21,401 nt of DNA from a virus. A model generated the notes under the pieces. The model was not told the origin of the DNA and made no database searches. It was given only the letters and a program-made list of their open reading frames with translations. Location: positions 1 through 21,401 of IMG/VR virus record IMGVR_UViG_3300043137_000180; one strand, 5' to 3'. Within the stretch, counting starts at the first letter, position 1. Every line of letters starts with the position of its first letter. This document shows positions 3,965 to 13,371 of this stretch, one piece after another. The position numbers and the translations under genes were made by a program.

Positions 3965-4432
3965 ATGCTCAATAACGATTCTCCCACGACAGAACCGGAT
4001 CGCTTGCAATGGTTTGCTGGCGATAAAGACGCGCTTGATCTGTACGAGCGCCTTGTCTACGCCATTCACGCGTGGGATGATTTAGTTGACCAAGATAAGC
4101 CTGTGAACGTCAACGACATGGTCGCGAACCTGTTCTTGTACATCCCACAAAACCCAGTTTTCCGCCGCTACGAAGGTGAGCTTCGCGCTCTTTTTATGAC
4201 AGGTATGGTTGGTTACATGGCTGCGAACGCAATGGAAAAATCGGGCAACGAGCACAAGCTGGAACTCGCCCACTACCTGCGTTACACCATCATTAACATG
4301 GGTGTGTTTCTCATCACAGTATTCAACGGACCCGCTCGGGCAGCAGTTATTTTGGAAGAAGCTGCGATGACGATGATCCCCGAACGGTTGGCCGATTATG
4401 TAAAGGAGCACTCCGATGCTGATACGCACTAA
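3965..4432 (+). CDS. Conserved phage protein of unknown function, all-helical, with DDxxD-type motif (155 aa)
   Basis: I recognise this as a protein type recurring in phage genomes but know of no function. It starts at ATG 3965 after a 15-base gap with a weak ribosome site. It looks all-helical. The striking part is AIHAWDDLVDQDKP (residues 33-46), an acidic DDxxD-type cluster (D38, D39, D42, D44) at the end of a helix. Further on are NEHKLELAHYLRY (95-107) and a hydrophobic helix TIINMGVFLITVF (108-120) that could touch membrane but is short. The C-terminus overlaps the next gene by 17 bases. Its position between tail-fiber assembly and internal-protein genes suggests a virion or assembly role. 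The DDxxD arrangement resembles metal-binding helices of isoprenoid-synthase-fold enzymes, but that is a resemblance only. Confidence 0.6.
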   Translation: MLNNDSPTTEPDRLQWFAGDKDALDLYERLVYAIHAWDDLVDQDKPVNVNDMVANLFLYIPQNPVFRRYEGELRALFMTGMVGYMAANAMEKSGNEHKLELAHYLRYTIINMGVFLITVFNGPARAAVILEEAAMTMIPERLADYVKEHSDADTH

Positions 4433-5486
4433 ATTTGATGGTTATAAGCCTTGCGGCCACCGCGTCCTTCCGTTTGATATTGGTGGTGACTCCCCCGCAC
4501 CTCCAGACTACTCTGCGATGGCGAAAGCTACAGAGCGGGGCATAGACGTAGCTGAGAAACTTAGCACGCGACAGATGGACTTCGCCCAGAAGCAGTACGA
4601 GGAGCAAAAGCCATATCTGCAAAATGTTGCGGATACTCTCGTTGCAGCGCAAAAACAGCAGACCGAGCAAGGCAAAGAATACTACGACTACAACGTCAAT
4701 ACGTTCCGTCCGCTCGAAAAAGGGCTAGTCGCTGACGCTGAGAGGTTCAACACTGAGTCGTACCGCGAGCAGCTGGCCCAGAAAGCCGCAGCCGACGTGC
4801 AGCAGGCGTTCCAAGGTGCGCAAGGTGTTTCCATGCGCGAAGCCACCCGCCGTGGTATCAATCCAAACTCTGGCGCGTTCGGTGCCGCTTCAAACGCCAA
4901 TGCTCTGAAACTAGCAGCCGCTACCGCTGGGGCGCAGACTGGCGCACGCTCGCAAGCTGAACAAACAGGCTGGGCTCGCCGCCTTGACGCTGCTGGCCTC
5001 GGTCGTAACTTGGCTGGTGCATCGACCGCCGCCTACTCTGGCGCTACAAGCGCGGGAACAGCAGGTGCCAATACATCCATGGCCGCAGGCAACCAATACA
5101 GCAGCGCGTTCGGCCAAGGCGCTGGTTACGCAATGAGTGGTGCGCAGATGGGCATCCAAGGTGCTGGCAACATCCTCAGCGCTCAGGGTAGCGCTTACAA
5201 CACTGGCATCAACGCACGTGGCGAGATGATGGGTGCTTTGTTGGGTGCTGGTGCAACTGCATACTCTGACCGTCGCCTCAAGGAAGACATCAAGCTCATT
5301 GGTGTTGACGAGCGCACTGGCTTGAACCTATATGAGTTCACATACAAAAACGGTTCAGGCGACAAGTACGTTGGCGTAATGGCCGACGAAGCCAAGGCCA
5401 AATACCCAGAAGCTGTATTCACAATGCCTGACGGCTTTGATGCAGTCAACTACGAAGTGCTCGGTATCGAGTTCAAGAAAGCATAA
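4416..5486 (+). CDS. Probable internal virion protein with C-terminal Peptidase_S74-type domain (356 aa)
   Basis: The ATG at 4416 follows an AAAGGAG site at seven-base spacing and overlaps the previous gene by 17 bases. Residues about 30-110 form a charged, Gln/Glu/Lys-rich helical region. Residues about 120-280 are rich in Ala, Gly, Ser and Asn with no clear fold. The last 73 residues (284-356) begin with SDRRLKEDI and continue through YEFTYK and YVGVMADEAKAKYPEAV. This is the Peptidase_S74 / intramolecular-chaperone signature, in which classical members self-cleave just before the Ser of the SD pair. Such domains usually sit on tail spikes and fibers. Here the carrier is an Ala/Gln-rich helical protein followed by two large ejection-type genes, so an internal or DNA-injection protein is more likely than a fiber. 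Whether it cleaves itself is unknown. Confidence 0.65.
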   Translation: MLIRTKFDGYKPCGHRVLPFDIGGDSPAPPDYSAMAKATERGIDVAEKLSTRQMDFAQKQYEEQKPYLQNVADTLVAAQKQQTEQGKEYYDYNVNTFRPLEKGLVADAERFNTESYREQLAQKAAADVQQAFQGAQGVSMREATRRGINPNSGAFGAASNANALKLAAATAGAQTGARSQAEQTGWARRLDAAGLGRNLAGASTAAYSGATSAGTAGANTSMAAGNQYSSAFGQGAGYAMSGAQMGIQGAGNILSAQGSAYNTGINARGEMMGALLGAGATAYSDRRLKEDIKLIGVDERTGLNLYEFTYKNGSGDKYVGVMADEAKAKYPEAVFTMPDGFDAVNYEVLGIEFKKA

Positions 5487-5496
5487 GGAGTACGCT

Positions 5497-7170
5497 ATGG
5501 GATGGGCATCAGGTTTACAAGCCGGTATACAGCTCGGCAATGCTTTTAAGCAAGGGCAAGAACGCCGCCGCATGGAAGAAATCCAGCAGGCTACCCCCGA
5601 AGCATCACAGGGCTATACAGCTGAGCAAGGCGCTCAGCTGGAAGCTATGGCTAAAGCCATCAACCCAGAGACAGGTCGTCCGTACTACCAAGTCAGCGCT
5701 GGCGAAGGTGGCAACTACACGGTTACGCCGGACTTCACAGAGTCTCAGCGCCCTGTGGGGCTCACTGGCACTCCCACTGAGAACGCGCCTATTGCCTATG
5801 ACCAGCAGCGTGTGACCAACTTCCTTGGTAAACGCTATGAAGGCGAGCTAGCCCCTGAACGTGTTGAAGGCTTGCGTACTCGTGCTATGGCCGAAGCAAC
5901 GGCGGACCCACGCCTGCGCCAGCAAATGCTCATGGAAGCTACTCGTGCTGAACGTGAAGCACAAGAAGCGCCTTTGCGCCTGCAAAGTCTGCAACAGGGT
6001 GTCACACTCGGAGGCGTGCAGCTCACTGCTGCGCAACGCGCCGAAAAAACGGCAGCCGCGAATGAGCAAGCTGACGTAGCCTTAGCAGAAATGCGGGCCA
6101 AGGGCACCCCAATCAATTCCCAGTCTCTCGCTGAGTTGGCGAAAAGCACCGGAGCTGATTACAACAACCTGTTGAAAAATGAGTTGAACCAACTGGGGTT
6201 TAACGAAAAGACCGCAGCTGTAGAGATGAAGAACTTGTCTAAAGAGTGGAGCCGAGCTGCACTTGGCGGTACTGCTTCAATCAACAAATTCTTGACCGAC
6301 AAGTTTGACCCTGACAAAAACGACAACGTCACGCCAGAGCTGGTGCAGACCAAGAATGGTTACGTCGTCATGTATGGTGACAAAGTCCTCAGCAACTACG
6401 GCACGCACAAAGACCTGAACACGGTTATCGCACAAGTTCACGGGATGATTAACGACGACCCCCTCGGTACGTTGAAATCTCTTGCGGCAATCAAAGCTAG
6501 CGATGCCAGCGCGAACTACCATAACGCAGCTACTGGTCTTACCGGCCTAAAGGCTGATGCGTTTAAAAACGAGCAGGCTGGTCGTACTGAAGCATCCAAG
6601 ATTGCGGCTGATTTTGACGCTTTACCTCTTGACAAGCAGAACGGCCCTGAAGGTCTTGCGCTCAAGAATAAGTTCAACATGGCTAACGCCAAAGCAGGCG
6701 GACAGATTTCTCTCGGCGTGCAAGCGCGACCCGGCCAACTTATGTCGGACGTTGAAAAAGCCAACCTCGCTGAGTACTACAAGTGGGAAAACGATGACCG
6801 CAACGCGCGTCTGCCGCAGGCTGAAAAGGACAAAAAGGCCACGCGCATGGGCGTGTATCAGTTTGCCAATCCAACAGCAAATACCGTGCAATCTGGTCTA
6901 GGTAGTAACCCGTATGGTGGTAGCGGAGTAGCTTCTCCATCAGCGAAAAACCAGACTGCCAACACGCGACAAACTCCTACGATCCCTGCACTTTCGTCAG
7001 AGAATACACGCATACTTGGCCCTGCTGGTAACGCTGGGTTTAACGTAGAATTGCTGGACGGCACCACGCGTACCATGTCCCCCAGCGATTTAGAGGCTAT
7101 GGGCTATAAATTTCCCAACGGAACTGGTCTCCAGCGTCCTTGGTACGCGGACTTAATGCCACGCCGATAA
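5497..7170 (+). CDS. Probable internal virion / ejection protein (557 aa)
   Basis: The ATG at 5497 is chosen because it follows a clear AAGGAG site that overlaps the upstream stop; an in-frame upstream TTG would lie inside the preceding gene. The N-terminus (MGWASGLQAGIQLGNAFKQG) is a glycine-dotted helix typical of phage internal proteins. It is followed by long Ala/Glu/Gln/Lys-rich helices, notably residues 100-200 with many Arg/Glu pairs. The C-terminal 100 residues are Pro/Ser/Asn/Gly-rich and end in a small DGTTRTMSPSDLEAMGY segment. There is no signal peptide, clear transmembrane helix or enzyme motif. Size, composition and position directly before the 1973-aa protein fit the podovirus pattern of consecutive internal (ejection) proteins. 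The precise function is unknown. Confidence 0.6.
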   Translation: MGWASGLQAGIQLGNAFKQGQERRRMEEIQQATPEASQGYTAEQGAQLEAMAKAINPETGRPYYQVSAGEGGNYTVTPDFTESQRPVGLTGTPTENAPIAYDQQRVTNFLGKRYEGELAPERVEGLRTRAMAEATADPRLRQQMLMEATRAEREAQEAPLRLQSLQQGVTLGGVQLTAAQRAEKTAAANEQADVALAEMRAKGTPINSQSLAELAKSTGADYNNLLKNELNQLGFNEKTAAVEMKNLSKEWSRAALGGTASINKFLTDKFDPDKNDNVTPELVQTKNGYVVMYGDKVLSNYGTHKDLNTVIAQVHGMINDDPLGTLKSLAAIKASDASANYHNAATGLTGLKADAFKNEQAGRTEASKIAADFDALPLDKQNGPEGLALKNKFNMANAKAGGQISLGVQARPGQLMSDVEKANLAEYYKWENDDRNARLPQAEKDKKATRMGVYQFANPTANTVQSGLGSNPYGGSGVASPSAKNQTANTRQTPTIPALSSENTRILGPAGNAGFNVELLDGTTRTMSPSDLEAMGYKFPNGTGLQRPWYADLMPRR

Positions 7171-7186: not shown

Positions 7187-10100
7187 ATGGCTATTTTCTC
7201 TCTGAACGAACTCCGCGCGGCAGCGCCGCCTGAGTTACAGAACTTGTCTGACGACGCACTCCTGCGGGATTACAGCCAGCGAGTCGGCAAGAGTTTTGAA
7301 GAGACAGCTGATTACTTCGGGTTTAAGCCACGCGGTACACTGGCTGAGATGGGCCGCCAAGCAGTTGGCGGTGCTGTCGTTGATCTGCCAAAGATGGTCG
7401 GTCAAGGATTGCAGTACACCGGTGTCGCACCCGAATTAGGCCGTGAGATGGCGCAGTCCGCTGAAGAGCGTGCTGTTGACTATGTGCCTGATATGCGTGG
7501 TCGTGGCCTCGTTGGCCAAGCTGGTGTTCTCGGTGCCCGTGGCCTCGCGCCTATGGCTCCTGCTATCGCAGCGAGCATGTTGCCCGGCGGTCAATTCGCC
7601 GCTCCTGTTGTCGCCGCTGGTTTGTTCGGTACGTCGTCTGCGCAAGAGACCTACGAAAAAATACTGAGCGAAACTGGTGACAAACAGGCTGCCACTGACG
7701 CTGCTCGCCGTGTCGGCTTGATCCAAGGCCCGCTGGAAGGTGCGGCTACCGCCGTAGGTCTACGCGCGGCCAAAGGTATCGCACCAGTCCTTGGTATTGG
7801 TGAAAAAACAACAGCTGGCGTCGCCGCTGGCTTAACTGATACAGCGGTTGCAAAGCCGTTCCTCAAGGGCATGGCGGTCAACGCCGTAGTCCAACCCGGA
7901 ACTGAAGTCGCTCAAGATTTGGGCACTTACGCAGTTGAGCAAGCCTACGGTGCCAAAGCAGAAGACCCATACGAAATCGCCAAGCAGTCTGCTTTAGGCG
8001 GTGCTGGTCTGACAATGATTCTCGGCCCTTTGTCGCTGGGCGGCCATGTTGCACGTTCTCGCAAAGCCGAAGTCTTGCAAGCCGCGTTGAGTCAAGATGC
8101 CCCTGCTGAAGTCCGCGCTCAAGCTACCAATGCCGTGATGGCAGAAGCCCGCCGCCAAGGTGTGTCGGAAGCCGATGTAGGCGCATGGTTCGAGCAGCAA
8201 CTCGCTGTTGAAAAAGAGTTTAACGACCGCGTCAAGCAGGACGCGCTTACCCGCACAGTTGACCTGATGGGCACCCAAGCCCAAGAGCTGCCGTTCATGC
8301 AAGAGCCACAGGCTTTCTCGTCACTCGACCAGCAGCGCAATTTTGAGCAGGGCATGTCTGGTGTTGACTTGCAGACCCCGTTCTCATCTGTCGAGCAACA
8401 GCGCGGATTCGAGCAAGACCTGATGGGCATCCGTGACCGCAAAGTAGAAGAAGTCGGTCAGCAGTACCAAGACTTGGTTGGACAGAAAGCGTCTGGCCTT
8501 ATGGCTGCTCAAGACGCCGGTCAAGAGTTCCAGCAGTTGCAGGCTCGCAAAGAAAGCGGCCTAGCCGCTGCTACGCAAGCTGGCGATGAGTTTCAAGAGC
8601 AACGTGTTGCTCGCCTCAAGCAGCAATTTAACATTGAAGACATTGGCCAAGAGTGGCAAAAACTTGCCGCTGAATTGCCTCAGCCTATCAGCACTGGTCT
8701 CTCGAAGGGACAACGTCAGGCATTGCTCGGCCCCAAAGGCAAGCGTCTCAAGCAGACCTCAACACCATTCGTCGCACAAGAACAACAAGCTCCTATGTCG
8801 GCGTCACTGCTGCCACAAGCTCCTGTGTTCTCATCGTCAATCTTGCCACAAGAGGCTGCACCCTCAAGCCAGCTTTCTGACCGCCCAGTTTCTCCTATCG
8901 GTGCCGCAAGCGCCGTTCAGCCAACTACGCCGGTCGTAGTTGGCGCTTCTTCTAAAGGTACCGTAAGTGGCACTCAAACCGCTCAAACCGTCCAAGCAAA
9001 AGCGCAAGGACAAGAACTTTCCCCCGCAGAATCCGCTCAACTGAGCAAACTGCTCTCGGACGCTGACAATGAAACCATCGGTGATGTACTGCCCGCCTCG
9101 GTGAAGTCTAGCGGCAAAGCAGTGCCCGGTCGCACAAGCATCGACCAGTCTGGCCTCAAGCGTATTCGTGACGCCTTGGTGCTCGGCAAAGAAGTCGCTG
9201 ACGAGAAGACTGGTCAGATCGTTGACGCTCTGCGCAACTTCGCCAACTCATACAAGGTCTACTCTGACCAAGGTGGTCAAGCCCTGTCGCGCCGCAACAA
9301 GATCGCCAAGCGCAGCACCGCCGCTCAGTTTGCTGACGAGCAGTCTTCTGCCATTGAGATGCAGGCAGCCAACGTGCAAAACGCACTGGCCGAGCTGGGC
9401 ACCGCCGTCGGCGGCAACGCCAAAGACATCGAAGCCGTTGTGCGCCTCGTCAAAGACATGGTGCAGGGCAAGCTGGCTTCCCCCGGCAGCACTAAAAAGA
9501 AAACCCGCGATGAGTTGAAGAAACTCGACACCATGCTGTCGCAAGCGTGGGCAGCAGCCAAGCGTGAAACGCTTATGGGCAAAGAGCCTGATATGGCTGA
9601 CATCCGCACTGGGGCTATCCGTGGCTCCATCGAAGTCAAGGGCAAAGGCAAGATGCCTACGCTCGTCAAGGTCGCTAAAGAAGGTATCAACGCTGGCAAA
9701 GACGCCGGAGTCCTTAAAGGGTTGCCAGCAATACTGCAATACATGCGAACCAATGGCACCCCCATGGAGCGTGCTTTGGCTTTGGCCCTGCGCGAGTCAA
9801 TCGTTGGCAGCGAAAGCGACATCAAGCTGGTGTTCACAAAAGACGGCAAGCCCCGCTTCGACCCAGCCACCAATACGGTGTACCTGAGCGAAGAAGAGTC
9901 CCCAGAGGTCATCTTGCACGAGGCGTTCCACGCCGCGCTGCAATCGTTCGTCTACAAGAACCCCAACCACCCTGCCGTGGTACAGCTCAAGAAATCCCTC
10001 AAGTCCGTCATCGGATTTAAGGGCGAGCTCACTGGCAAAGCATTGGAAGTTCAGAACTTGCTCAAAGGCTTGGTGGCCAAAGGCAACGAGCTGGACGCTG

Positions 10101-13100
10101 TGCTCGAACTGGTCTCATACGGCAACACGCTCGCTGAGTTCCGCAAGGCACTTCAGGGTATGAAGTCCGACAAGAACATCCCCAAGACTTTCTTGGAGTC
10201 CGTCAACAGCGCTTGGGCGGCTATCAAGCAAATCGCGTCTCGTCTGTTGGGTGGCAAACGCTCTCTGGCAAATGACGTGCTTGAGTCGTCGCTGGAACTG
10301 CTTGAGAAGGCGCAGAAGCAAACTGCTGTCACTGGCCAAGGCCAAGTGCTCGAAGCCGCCGTGACGACTACCAAGCCAGTCAGCGACGCCAAAGCCGCCG
10401 AGGTACTGGGTGTGAGTGAGCAGGACTTCAGCCGCTGGAACAAATCCAACGCTGTCCAACTCGATGCTACCCAACGTGCGTTTGAGATGGTGGGCTGGAG
10501 TGAAGCTAACGCCAAGAAGTTCTTTGGCGCTGCTGGCAACAAGACTCGTGCGTTCATCAGCAAGAACTTTCCCGGTGCTGAAATCGTCTTGGGCTTGATT
10601 AACTCTCGCTACAACGTGAGCGAGTCTGTGTCCAAAATCATGGACAACTTCAAGCTCAATAAAGGCATCGGCTACCAGTACGCTGAGGACTTGGCCAACG
10701 TAATCTCTCGCCGCCCAGCAGAGGATGTCAACGCCCTGTTCGCGTACCTCGACGGTGACAAGAAGGCGCTGGACAAGTTGCCTGACGCCATGAAGCTCAA
10801 GGCTGTTGCTGACAAGCTCAAGAGCTGGTTCGACATGTACGTGGCTGAGTTGACCCCCGTCGAGCAACGGTACTTCCAAAGCCGTAAGTTCACAGAGACT
10901 TTGCTCTTCCCCGAGCGCACTGAGCAGGTTGCTGGTTCTACGTTCGGTCTCGGCAAAATCAATGAGGTGCTGGGCTTGAAGCGCGAAGGCGAGACTGAGC
11001 TCGACCAGAACTGGTTCCAGAAAGACGACAACGGCGACCTCGTGGTTGACGGTGACGCATACCGTGTATTTGAGGTGAACCGCCTGTCGGCCAAGGGCGG
11101 CATGATGCCCGCTGGCTTTATGTCTGCTGCACGCTTTGCAGAACTCGGTGGTATGAACCCCATGGGCTTCACGGTGGACACGTCACGCAAGTGGCTGTTT
11201 GAGGGCATGAAGGACGGCAAATACTCTTTCGTGACCAACACCACCGCCAAGGACAAGATCGCTAACGAGAAGGCTGACGACGTAGCCAACGCCCTGCGCA
11301 ACACCATTGCTGCACTGGCCAACAACTACTCCAGCAAGCACTTCATCAAGTCCATCAACGACATGGGCCGTGGTGACAACTCGCACGCTCAGGTGGCTTT
11401 CGACAGCCTCGACGATGTGAACGCTATGCTCAACAAGGGCATCACAGACCCCAAGGACAAGGTTGTCATCACAGACACCATGGTGCTCAAGGCATCGCAC
11501 GAGATTTCTCGTTCACCACAGACCAGCGCTCTCTACCGCCAATCTGGCACATGGGTGCAGCTGCCTGACTCCAACGTGTACGGCGACCTCGCTGGCAAGA
11601 TCATCCCCGGCCCCGTATGGAACGCCATGGGTGACATGGCCGATCGTCAGCCCATCGTGAACTGGCGTGCTGCCAACAACACCATGCGTTGGTTTAAGAA
11701 GTCCAAGACTGTGTGGAACTTCGGCACCCACGTTACCAACACTGCGTCCAACGTGACCATGGCGATGACCCATGACATCTCGTTTGGCACCATGCGCGAC
11801 GCTGCAAAGATTCTGGCCAAGTACGAAGCCAACCCCAAGTCGTTGACCAAGCAAGAGCTTGAGTTGATGATGGCTTTCCGTGACTCTGGTGCCATGCTGG
11901 CCGACTACTCCAGCGCTGAGGTGAAGGAAGCCCTTTACAAAGCCCACGAGGCAAACCTGCGCGGTGGTGAAGACATCTCTGTGATGCGTCGTGTCGGCGG
12001 ATGGCTCGGTATGGAAAAGTCTAAGGCTGATTGGTTGCAAGCCCAAGCCAAGAAGCTGGGTAAGGGTGCAGATCGCCTCGACGACCTGTCATCGCAAATG
12101 TACGCCGCTGAAGACAACATCTTCCGTATGGCTGCTTTCTTGAAGACAGCTGGTGCCCTGCAACAGCGTGCTGGATTGAAGACTCCCACAGAATACATGA
12201 TGCGTGAAGCTGGCCTATTCGCTCGCAAGGCGTTCGGTGACTATGACATCGACTCCAAGGCCGTGAAGATCGCCCGCCAGACAGCGATGCCGTTCATTTC
12301 TTGGTTCTACGCCATGGCACCCGTCATCGGTCGTATCGCCGTGTATGAGCCATGGAAGCTGGCCAACGTGATGATGGCCTACATGATTCTGGAAGCTGCC
12401 ATGGGCGGCGCGGCTGGCGGTGATGACGAGGAACTGCGTAAGCAGGGGCCAGAGTCTGTACGTGAGCGCATGTTCGGCTCAGTGGGGCCATACATGAACA
12501 TCCGCATCCCGTTCATGGGTGATGAAGAGAACCCCGTGTACTACAAACTCGGTGATTACTTCCCCATGGCGTCGTTCACGCGCGGCCTGCCCAACGGCAT
12601 GATGGGCCAGTCGTGGATTCCTGCATCGCTGACACCTAGCGGCCCGTTCGTGAGCGGCATCTTGGGTCTGGTGGGCGGCGTTGACCCCTACACCGGCAAG
12701 TCGTTGCATAAGCCCACTGACACCGAGTTGCAGAAGCTGTGGACAAGCACCAAGTTCGCCTATGACACAGCGACAATCCCGCTCATCAACAGCCGCAACA
12801 TCAGCAAGGTGGACGACATCATCGAAGGCAAGACTGGCATCACTGGCAAAGAGCCATCCAGCTTACCGATTGCCCGCGCGTTCGGCATGAAGTTTTACGA
12901 CTTCAACGTCACTGAGCAGGCGGCTATCAACGAAATGGTGGTCAAGCGTATCGGCAAAGACTTCAAGTCCGCGATGACCTCAGCCAAGCGCGACGAGTAC
13001 CGCAAAGCGTACCCAGACTACGAAGCCCTTGACGAGAAACTCGAAGAGTTGCGCACCCGTATGGACAAAGAAATCATCAAAGCCCGTGGCGGCGCGGAGG

Positions 13101-13108
13101 AAGAATAA
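7187..13108 (+). CDS. Giant internal virion protein, polyvalent-protein type, with zincin-like motif (1973 aa)
   Basis: The ATG at 7187 follows a GGAG site. The N-terminal 300 residues are Ala/Gly-rich and mildly hydrophobic, as in proteins ejected with DNA. Residues 377-491 hold six copies of a roughly 21-residue Gln-rich repeat. Residues 500-620 are a Pro/Gln/Ser linker. An HExxH motif, HEAFH, lies at 911-915 in the context SPEVILHEAFHAALQSF, as in zinc metallopeptidases found in large polyvalent proteins. The C-terminal half (from about 1500) contains NWRAANNTMRWFKKSKTVWN, a helix-rich body and an AMPFISWFYAMAPVIG segment. Near the end LPIARAFGMKF (1893-1903) resembles the PLxRFG motif of very large phage proteins. 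I infer a protein packaged in the capsid and ejected early. Protease activity is untested, and the third zinc ligand is not identified. Confidence 0.7.
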   Translation: MAIFSLNELRAAAPPELQNLSDDALLRDYSQRVGKSFEETADYFGFKPRGTLAEMGRQAVGGAVVDLPKMVGQGLQYTGVAPELGREMAQSAEERAVDYVPDMRGRGLVGQAGVLGARGLAPMAPAIAASMLPGGQFAAPVVAAGLFGTSSAQETYEKILSETGDKQAATDAARRVGLIQGPLEGAATAVGLRAAKGIAPVLGIGEKTTAGVAAGLTDTAVAKPFLKGMAVNAVVQPGTEVAQDLGTYAVEQAYGAKAEDPYEIAKQSALGGAGLTMILGPLSLGGHVARSRKAEVLQAALSQDAPAEVRAQATNAVMAEARRQGVSEADVGAWFEQQLAVEKEFNDRVKQDALTRTVDLMGTQAQELPFMQEPQAFSSLDQQRNFEQGMSGVDLQTPFSSVEQQRGFEQDLMGIRDRKVEEVGQQYQDLVGQKASGLMAAQDAGQEFQQLQARKESGLAAATQAGDEFQEQRVARLKQQFNIEDIGQEWQKLAAELPQPISTGLSKGQRQALLGPKGKRLKQTSTPFVAQEQQAPMSASLLPQAPVFSSSILPQEAAPSSQLSDRPVSPIGAASAVQPTTPVVVGASSKGTVSGTQTAQTVQAKAQGQELSPAESAQLSKLLSDADNETIGDVLPASVKSSGKAVPGRTSIDQSGLKRIRDALVLGKEVADEKTGQIVDALRNFANSYKVYSDQGGQALSRRNKIAKRSTAAQFADEQSSAIEMQAANVQNALAELGTAVGGNAKDIEAVVRLVKDMVQGKLASPGSTKKKTRDELKKLDTMLSQAWAAAKRETLMGKEPDMADIRTGAIRGSIEVKGKGKMPTLVKVAKEGINAGKDAGVLKGLPAILQYMRTNGTPMERALALALRESIVGSESDIKLVFTKDGKPRFDPATNTVYLSEEESPEVILHEAFHAALQSFVYKNPNHPAVVQLKKSLKSVIGFKGELTGKALEVQNLLKGLVAKGNELDAVLELVSYGNTLAEFRKALQGMKSDKNIPKTFLESVNSAWAAIKQIASRLLGGKRSLANDVLESSLELLEKAQKQTAVTGQGQVLEAAVTTTKPVSDAKAAEVLGVSEQDFSRWNKSNAVQLDATQRAFEMVGWSEANAKKFFGAAGNKTRAFISKNFPGAEIVLGLINSRYNVSESVSKIMDNFKLNKGIGYQYAEDLANVISRRPAEDVNALFAYLDGDKKALDKLPDAMKLKAVADKLKSWFDMYVAELTPVEQRYFQSRKFTETLLFPERTEQVAGSTFGLGKINEVLGLKREGETELDQNWFQKDDNGDLVVDGDAYRVFEVNRLSAKGGMMPAGFMSAARFAELGGMNPMGFTVDTSRKWLFEGMKDGKYSFVTNTTAKDKIANEKADDVANALRNTIAALANNYSSKHFIKSINDMGRGDNSHAQVAFDSLDDVNAMLNKGITDPKDKVVITDTMVLKASHEISRSPQTSALYRQSGTWVQLPDSNVYGDLAGKIIPGPVWNAMGDMADRQPIVNWRAANNTMRWFKKSKTVWNFGTHVTNTASNVTMAMTHDISFGTMRDAAKILAKYEANPKSLTKQELELMMAFRDSGAMLADYSSAEVKEALYKAHEANLRGGEDISVMRRVGGWLGMEKSKADWLQAQAKKLGKGADRLDDLSSQMYAAEDNIFRMAAFLKTAGALQQRAGLKTPTEYMMREAGLFARKAFGDYDIDSKAVKIARQTAMPFISWFYAMAPVIGRIAVYEPWKLANVMMAYMILEAAMGGAAGGDDEELRKQGPESVRERMFGSVGPYMNIRIPFMGDEENPVYYKLGDYFPMASFTRGLPNGMMGQSWIPASLTPSGPFVSGILGLVGGVDPYTGKSLHKPTDTELQKLWTSTKFAYDTATIPLINSRNISKVDDIIEGKTGITGKEPSSLPIARAFGMKFYDFNVTEQAAINEMVVKRIGKDFKSAMTSAKRDEYRKAYPDYEALDEKLEELRTRMDKEIIKARGGAEEE
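8315..8659 (+). repeat. Six-copy ~21-residue protein repeat inside the giant virion protein
   Basis: Counting residues of the 1973-aa protein, the pattern hydrophobic-(G/E/D)-(Q/D)-(Q/E)-x-x recurs with its second position at 381, 403, 424, 445, 466 and 487. The steps are 22, 21, 21, 21 and 21 residues. Examples are LDQQRNF, VEQQRGF, VGQQYQ, AGQEFQ, AGDEFQ and IGQEWQ. The third to fifth units also share K-x-SGL between repeats (434-438 and 455-459). Twenty-one residues equals three heptads, so a continuous Gln-rich helical or coiled-coil rod is likely. At the DNA level the copies have diverged, so this is an old internal amplification. Confidence 0.8.
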
Positions 13109-13371
13109 TGGCGACCAAAGATTCACGACTAGCGCGTGCAGGTGTGGCGGGCTTCAACAAGCCCAAGGCCACCCCCAGCCATCCGACCAAGAGCCACGTC
13201 GTCGTGGCCAAGGTAGGTGAGCAGGTCAAGACGATTCGTTTTGGCCAGCAAGGTGTTAAGGGCAGCCCTGACGGGTCTGCTCGCAACGAGGCGTTTAAAG
13301 CCCGCCATGCGGGCAACATCGCCAAAGGCAAAATGTCAGCCGCCTATTGGGCCGACAAAGTTAAATGGTAA
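13108..13371 (+). CDS. Small basic conserved phage protein, FKARHxxNIAKGKMSAAYWADKVKW type (87 aa)
   Basis: The start overlaps the stop of the giant gene by one base (TAATG) and is preceded by GGAGG, so it is translationally coupled to it. The protein is strongly basic. After a Pro/Lys N-terminus (AGFNKPKATPSHPTKSH) come a beta-like segment VKTIRFGQQGVKG (about 39-52) and the ending FKARHAGNIAKGKMSAAYWA, then DKVKW. I recognise this ending from many unrelated phage genomes, always as a small uncharacterised protein. I know of no function. The basic charge and position behind internal virion proteins would fit DNA binding in the particle, but that is inference. Confidence 0.65.
   Translation: MATKDSRLARAGVAGFNKPKATPSHPTKSHVVVAKVGEQVKTIRFGQQGVKGSPDGSARNEAFKARHAGNIAKGKMSAAYWADKVKW

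Follow-up and report, generated by a model that had tools for sequence, protein, structure and literature searches.

Gene content of the locus

The source DNA, referred to here as the window, is an entire IMG/VR virus record of 21,401 bases. On its forward strand, a giant gene (7187..13108) encodes a 1973-aa protein of the ejection/polyvalent type, to which relatives with the same MAI start could be aligned from end to end. Upstream of this gene, tail-fibre and tail-fibre-assembly genes are followed by genes encoding a 356-aa and a 557-aa protein. The 356-aa protein (4416..5486, forward strand) was classed as virion structural or DNA ejection-like from its matches to phrog_8003 (6e-40) and to phrog_4287, a DNA ejection protein (9e-10). 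The 557-aa protein (5497..7170, forward strand) had no PHROG match and is, by its position only, a possible second ejection protein. Replication genes were found on the opposite strand. Distant relatives of the window's primase-helicase-like protein occur in Pseudomonas phage Rollin and in the RHph_TM27A group of Rhizobium phages, the latter also carrying the zincin described below in a 2307-aa protein. By analogy, the 356-aa, 557-aa and giant genes together are reminiscent of ejection cassettes with three members, of which T7 genes 14-16 are an example. Because of this cassette, and because solved relatives are named internal virion or ejection proteins, the giant protein is probably carried in the head and injected along with the DNA.

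The C-terminal end of the 356-aa protein, SDRRLKEDIKLIG...YVGVMADEAK, looks by eye like the tail of an intramolecular chaperone (peptidase S74). An 87-aa gene (window 13108-13371) abuts the giant gene; it matched phrog_7595 (3e-34), and a weak match to part of the minor head / DNA pilot family was recorded for it.

Searches of Pfam, PHROGs and PDB sequences with the whole 1973-aa protein returned nothing useful, and no match was found among the named phages searched with it. Pfam Ribosomal_S7 and the remaining sub-threshold matches were set aside as chance. No segment of strong hydrophobicity came up in a hydropathy scan of the protein (threshold, a mean above 1.5 across 19 residues), and helicity was examined for residues 836-1055 only. 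The genome contigs scanned with the zincin domain described below also gave no match.

A conserved HExxH motif in the giant protein

An earlier note on this DNA had placed a HEAFH motif at residues 911-915 of the 1973-residue protein, and the translation of the reading frame bears this out, with the surroundings of the motif reading TVYLSEEESPEVILHEAFHAAL. HEAFH (9917..9931, forward strand) is the sole HExxH of the protein, in which H911 and H915 are putative zinc ligands and E912 the putative base. The protein is histidine-poor, and from its composition (11 histidines, 128 glutamates) approximately 0.004 HExxH motifs would be expected in 1973 residues.

Six relatives from the viral collection aligned over their full or nearly full length, and HExxH was kept in 6/6. 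A second search, using the domain alignment and two peptide patterns lying outside HExxH, returned 58 loci, and in all those inspected HExxH was located behind a [FY]DPxxNT signature. After duplicates and truncated copies were dropped, 45 non-redundant domains remained, with 20-94% identity to the window domain. Ten residues were invariant across these (45/45), namely D892, P893, N896, T897, H911, E912, H915, L934, E974 and F985. The first four belong to the signature before the active site, which reads FDPATNT in the window (residues 891-897; 9857..9877, forward strand). Silent variation was seen in the codons for the catalytic residues, with E912 in the close family being encoded by GAG in 14 cases and GAA in 16; selection, and not just a recently shared ancestor, therefore accounts for the constancy of these residues. 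A structural metal site could be another cause of the conservation of the HExxH residues.

The earlier note had also argued that the motif is more than sequence noise, and this held, as H911, E912 and H915 are unchanged in 45 relatives retrieved without use of the motif. That HEAFH is an accidental HExxH in a helical protein thus has a negligible probability in our estimation. Such accidents do exist, since T7 gp16 carries HERLH at 559, which the zincin profile did not match when gp16 was taken as a control; against an accident here stand the unbroken conservation across 45 diverse domains, the invariance of a further glutamate elsewhere in the domain, and the matches of family and fold.

That glutamate, E974, lies in an E974-x10-F985 motif (10106..10141, forward strand) and is the putative third zinc ligand. 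The sequence around it reads ELDAVLELVSYGNTLAEF, and in the distant group the stretch aligned to it is like SLDEFVAEAFSNPDF, with the E-x10-F spacing constant; the same spacing occurs in PhiM1 gp48 and in 9sfn_G. In the model described below, E974 falls on a later predicted helix (model residues 133-142). E974 is the best candidate for the third metal ligand. E968 and D970 were considered for this role and dropped, as both vary in the distant group.

Family and fold of the zincin-like domain

The zincin (MPTase) domain comprises residues about 845-1045 (9719..10321, forward strand) and is supported by the alignment of 45 relatives, phrog_2206, the model and the match to the C1 domain of N4 vRNAP. 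When excised, the window domain matched phrog_2206 (virion RNA polymerase) with an E value of 2.5e-8, a match that was absent with the uncut 1973-aa protein. The same family was matched by 29/45 domain members at the threshold used. No polymerase module was matched by the 1973-aa protein in Pfam, PHROGs or PDB sequences; the MPTase domain is all that it has in common with the vRNAP family. Against the PDB, the 45-domain profile matched 9sfn_G, an internal virion protein (3.5e-7), for which no publication was found, and weakly the PhiM1 ejection protein gp48 (8vb2; 0.03).

Modelling with 7 sequences first gave a weak result (pLDDT 69), for which the PDB structure search was not significant. The model from 45 sequences had a mean pLDDT of 80.8, and its elements followed one another as expected: helices, then three strands, then the helix with HExxH and the helix with the glutamate. 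H911 and H915 both lie within one predicted helix (71-89, model numbering) after three short strands, which agrees with the single helix on which the earlier note's proposal depended. Plain Foldseek with this model was not significant. A second-look aligner placed N4 vRNAP 2136-2364, a stretch of the C1 domain, first, with Z 9.4 and an rmsd of 4.1 over 179 residues; its second row scored 5.2. Classical zincins (selecase, abylysin, lethal factor) appeared only in lower rows at Z 3-5, and 8s5f, a non-protease HExxH enzyme, was among the low-scoring rows at Z 3.1.

The likeness to zincin domains of polyvalent phage proteins that the earlier note had seen is thus upheld by the conservation, the profile matches, the structural match to N4 vRNAP and the adjacent ART-PolyVal domain in relatives. 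Together these give strong support to reading the HEAFH region as a zincin-like MPTase within a polyvalent/ejection protein of a phage.

A cargo slot behind the domain and probable exchange of modules

Directly C-terminal to the zincin domain, 9/30 close-family members carry a slot of 180-324 residues. In the other 21/30, the window included, the slot comprises 18-20 residues without cargo, and the active site is kept in all. The empty slot of the window spans residues about 1046-1062 (10322..10372, forward strand), where relatives carry ART-PolyVal or another domain. The ADP-ribosyltransferase domain ART-PolyVal (PF18760) was recognized in 8/9 inserts (E 7e-15 to 4e-27), and the ninth, in L025, matched no Pfam family at E 0.01. 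Two disparate activity domains in one polypeptide are therefore present in the relatives bearing ART-PolyVal; the zincin is the only domain recognized in the window protein, and no polyvalent Pfam domain was found in the whole proteins.

Behind the slot, the C-terminal module of the window protein (residues 1063-1973; 10373..13105, forward strand) appears from pairwise identities to have been exchanged independently of the zincin module. The DNA identity of L002 and L005 is 83% before the slot and 95.6% after it; L007 and L027 share 97% identity in the zincin and 50% after it, and L004 and L007 share 53% and 89%, respectively. Unequal rates by themselves do not account for signs that are opposite in different pairs, so recombination is the likely cause, and the cargo slot is also a border between modules.

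It was also noted that the domain in the slot of L025 (L025:5648-6145) is a different one and contains SGHEGRHRARALKEAGY. As a pattern only, the ART-PolyVal inserts of L005, L007, L010, L033 and L041 keep the strand-1 histidine (V-[YF]-HGT). The same five inserts read GFFF at a position where the others read GAYF or GFYF, again as a pattern only, and their expected active-site tyrosine may have been replaced by phenylalanine.

Proposed mechanism and alternative explanations

We propose that HEAFH forms the catalytic centre of a zinc metallopeptidase domain of zincin fold, a homologue of the N4 vRNAP MPTase (C1), and that its carrier is the largest of the ejection-type proteins in a tailed phage. 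In this mechanism, H911, H915 and E974 would bind Zn2+ and E912 would act as general base, and the zinc peptidase would enter the cell together with the phage DNA. The domain is quite probably catalytic. It is likely, too, that the giant protein as injected contains a zincin domain with an active site, the exact substrate lying outside this claim. Of the roles considered, the most likely is that it processes injected proteins of the phage itself, in cis on the giant polypeptide or in trans on partners, during or after ejection; to this we assign slightly less than an even chance. As N4 vRNAP, the nearest studied relative, is reported to be packaged unprocessed (PMC5512222), processing before packaging is disfavoured. 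Both self-processing of phage proteins and cleavage of host targets had already been named as options in 2017 (PMC5512222). An active protease that may enter early in infection and either mature ejection proteins or cut a host factor, as the earlier note had inferred, thus agrees with published predictions.

The option of a host target, in which the injected zincin acts as an effector and cleaves a protein of the host early in infection (e.g. a defence, envelope or transcription factor) while self-processing is absent or incidental, we consider rather unlikely. The adjoining ART-PolyVal effector in relatives makes the protein a plausible effector carrier, and the active site is retained even where there is no cargo to release, as would suit such an effector. 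No target is known, however, and the domain is common to the N4 virion polymerase and several ejection proteins, which a job in the ejection machinery fits equally well or better. A domain that does not cut at all, serving as a structural metal-binding fold for packaging or refolding or having a HExxH oxygenase-like fold, is unlikely. N4 vRNAP is of full length on reaching the cell despite its domain, the region of which is needed for encapsidation (PMC5512222), and the N4 authors mention non-protease HExxH enzymes, one of which is the low-scoring 8s5f. Yet E912, which the binding of a metal does not require, is just as constant as both histidines (45/45), and an exclusively structural site is disfavoured because the loss of E912 would be tolerated somewhere in so diverse a set.

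Cargo immediately C-terminal to the zincin in 9/30 members would fit a protease that serves solely to free the neighbouring effector (ART-PolyVal). This is very improbable given the 21/30 members, the window among them, that combine an empty slot with an intact active site; because these versions without cargo keep the site, the zincin is unlikely to be only a release device for ADP-ribosyltransferase cargo. Alongside the self-processing that we prefer, it is conceivable, if doubtful, that in a family of giant ejection proteins the zincin stays in place beside a slot whose effectors are exchanged, and that the protease, intact even where the slot is empty, acts on something else as well, for instance the ejection apparatus itself. 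In that arrangement, the ADP-ribosyltransferase or other cargo would be swapped at the border right behind the protease, an idea that we hold to be just as speculative.

Comparison with known systems

A zincin-like MPTase in a phage polyvalent/ejection protein is of a kind already predicted (Iyer et al. 2017), and MPTase-ART fusions have been published (PMC5512222). In the polyvalent MPTase layout, HExxH lies on one helix and a glutamate on the next, with variable inserts between them (PMC5512222). The window protein shares with these proteins the HExxH helix with a later glutamate helix, and it likewise is a large phage protein in a late-gene cassette beside virion genes. Their ART-PolyVal PF18760 neighbours are found in relatives of the window protein, whereas in the window itself a second effector domain was unrecognized. 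A limited literature check did not turn up a description of this pattern, in which the protease is constant, the effector in the slot next to it is exchanged, and the protease is independent of the cargo.

The C1 domain of the N4 virion RNA polymerase gp50 (residues 2124-2375; PDB 9pnt) is zincin-like, with HELVH at 2228, and the presence of HExxH was noted by its authors. Both N4 vRNAP and the window protein have a large C-terminal region after the zincin, but identity is only ~17%, the RNA polymerase module is absent from the window protein, and a whole-protein profile gave no match to N4. As in the window, HExxH is followed by E-x10-F in the PhiM1 tetrameric ejection protein gp48 (8vb2) and in 9sfn_G, which are experimentally known virion proteins and are shorter (1263 and 1337 residues). 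The words protease, peptidase and HEXXH are absent from the PhiM1 gp48 paper, and our matches suggest that some structurally solved ejection proteins, e.g. that of PhiM1, may hold an unremarked peptidase-like domain.

The targets, if any, of MPTase domains in injected phage proteins have been a standing question since the 2017 prediction. The giant-protein family offers a natural comparison, with the same protease occurring with and without an adjacent effector, and it supplies clear residues to mutate as well as a related isolated phage, Rhizobium phage RHph_TM27A. The EVB29_085 product of this phage (2307 aa, hypothetical protein) matched the domain profile and carries HEATH plus EEFVAEAFSNPAF; outside the zincin, the whole-family profile gave no match to it. 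The primase-like protein of RHph_TM27A is also a distant relative of that in the window.

The giant protein of Pseudomonas phage Rollin was not counted among the relatives, as it has HEMGH at 1052 and the zincin profile was unmatched there. The existing annotation of this protein (OR577172.1 15452-22006, L069), oligopeptide transporter (OppA), looks mistaken. A 2704-aa relative (L058:2002-10113) carries two HExxH zincin-like motifs (HEITH and HEVTH) together with LPD39 and DarB-like regions.
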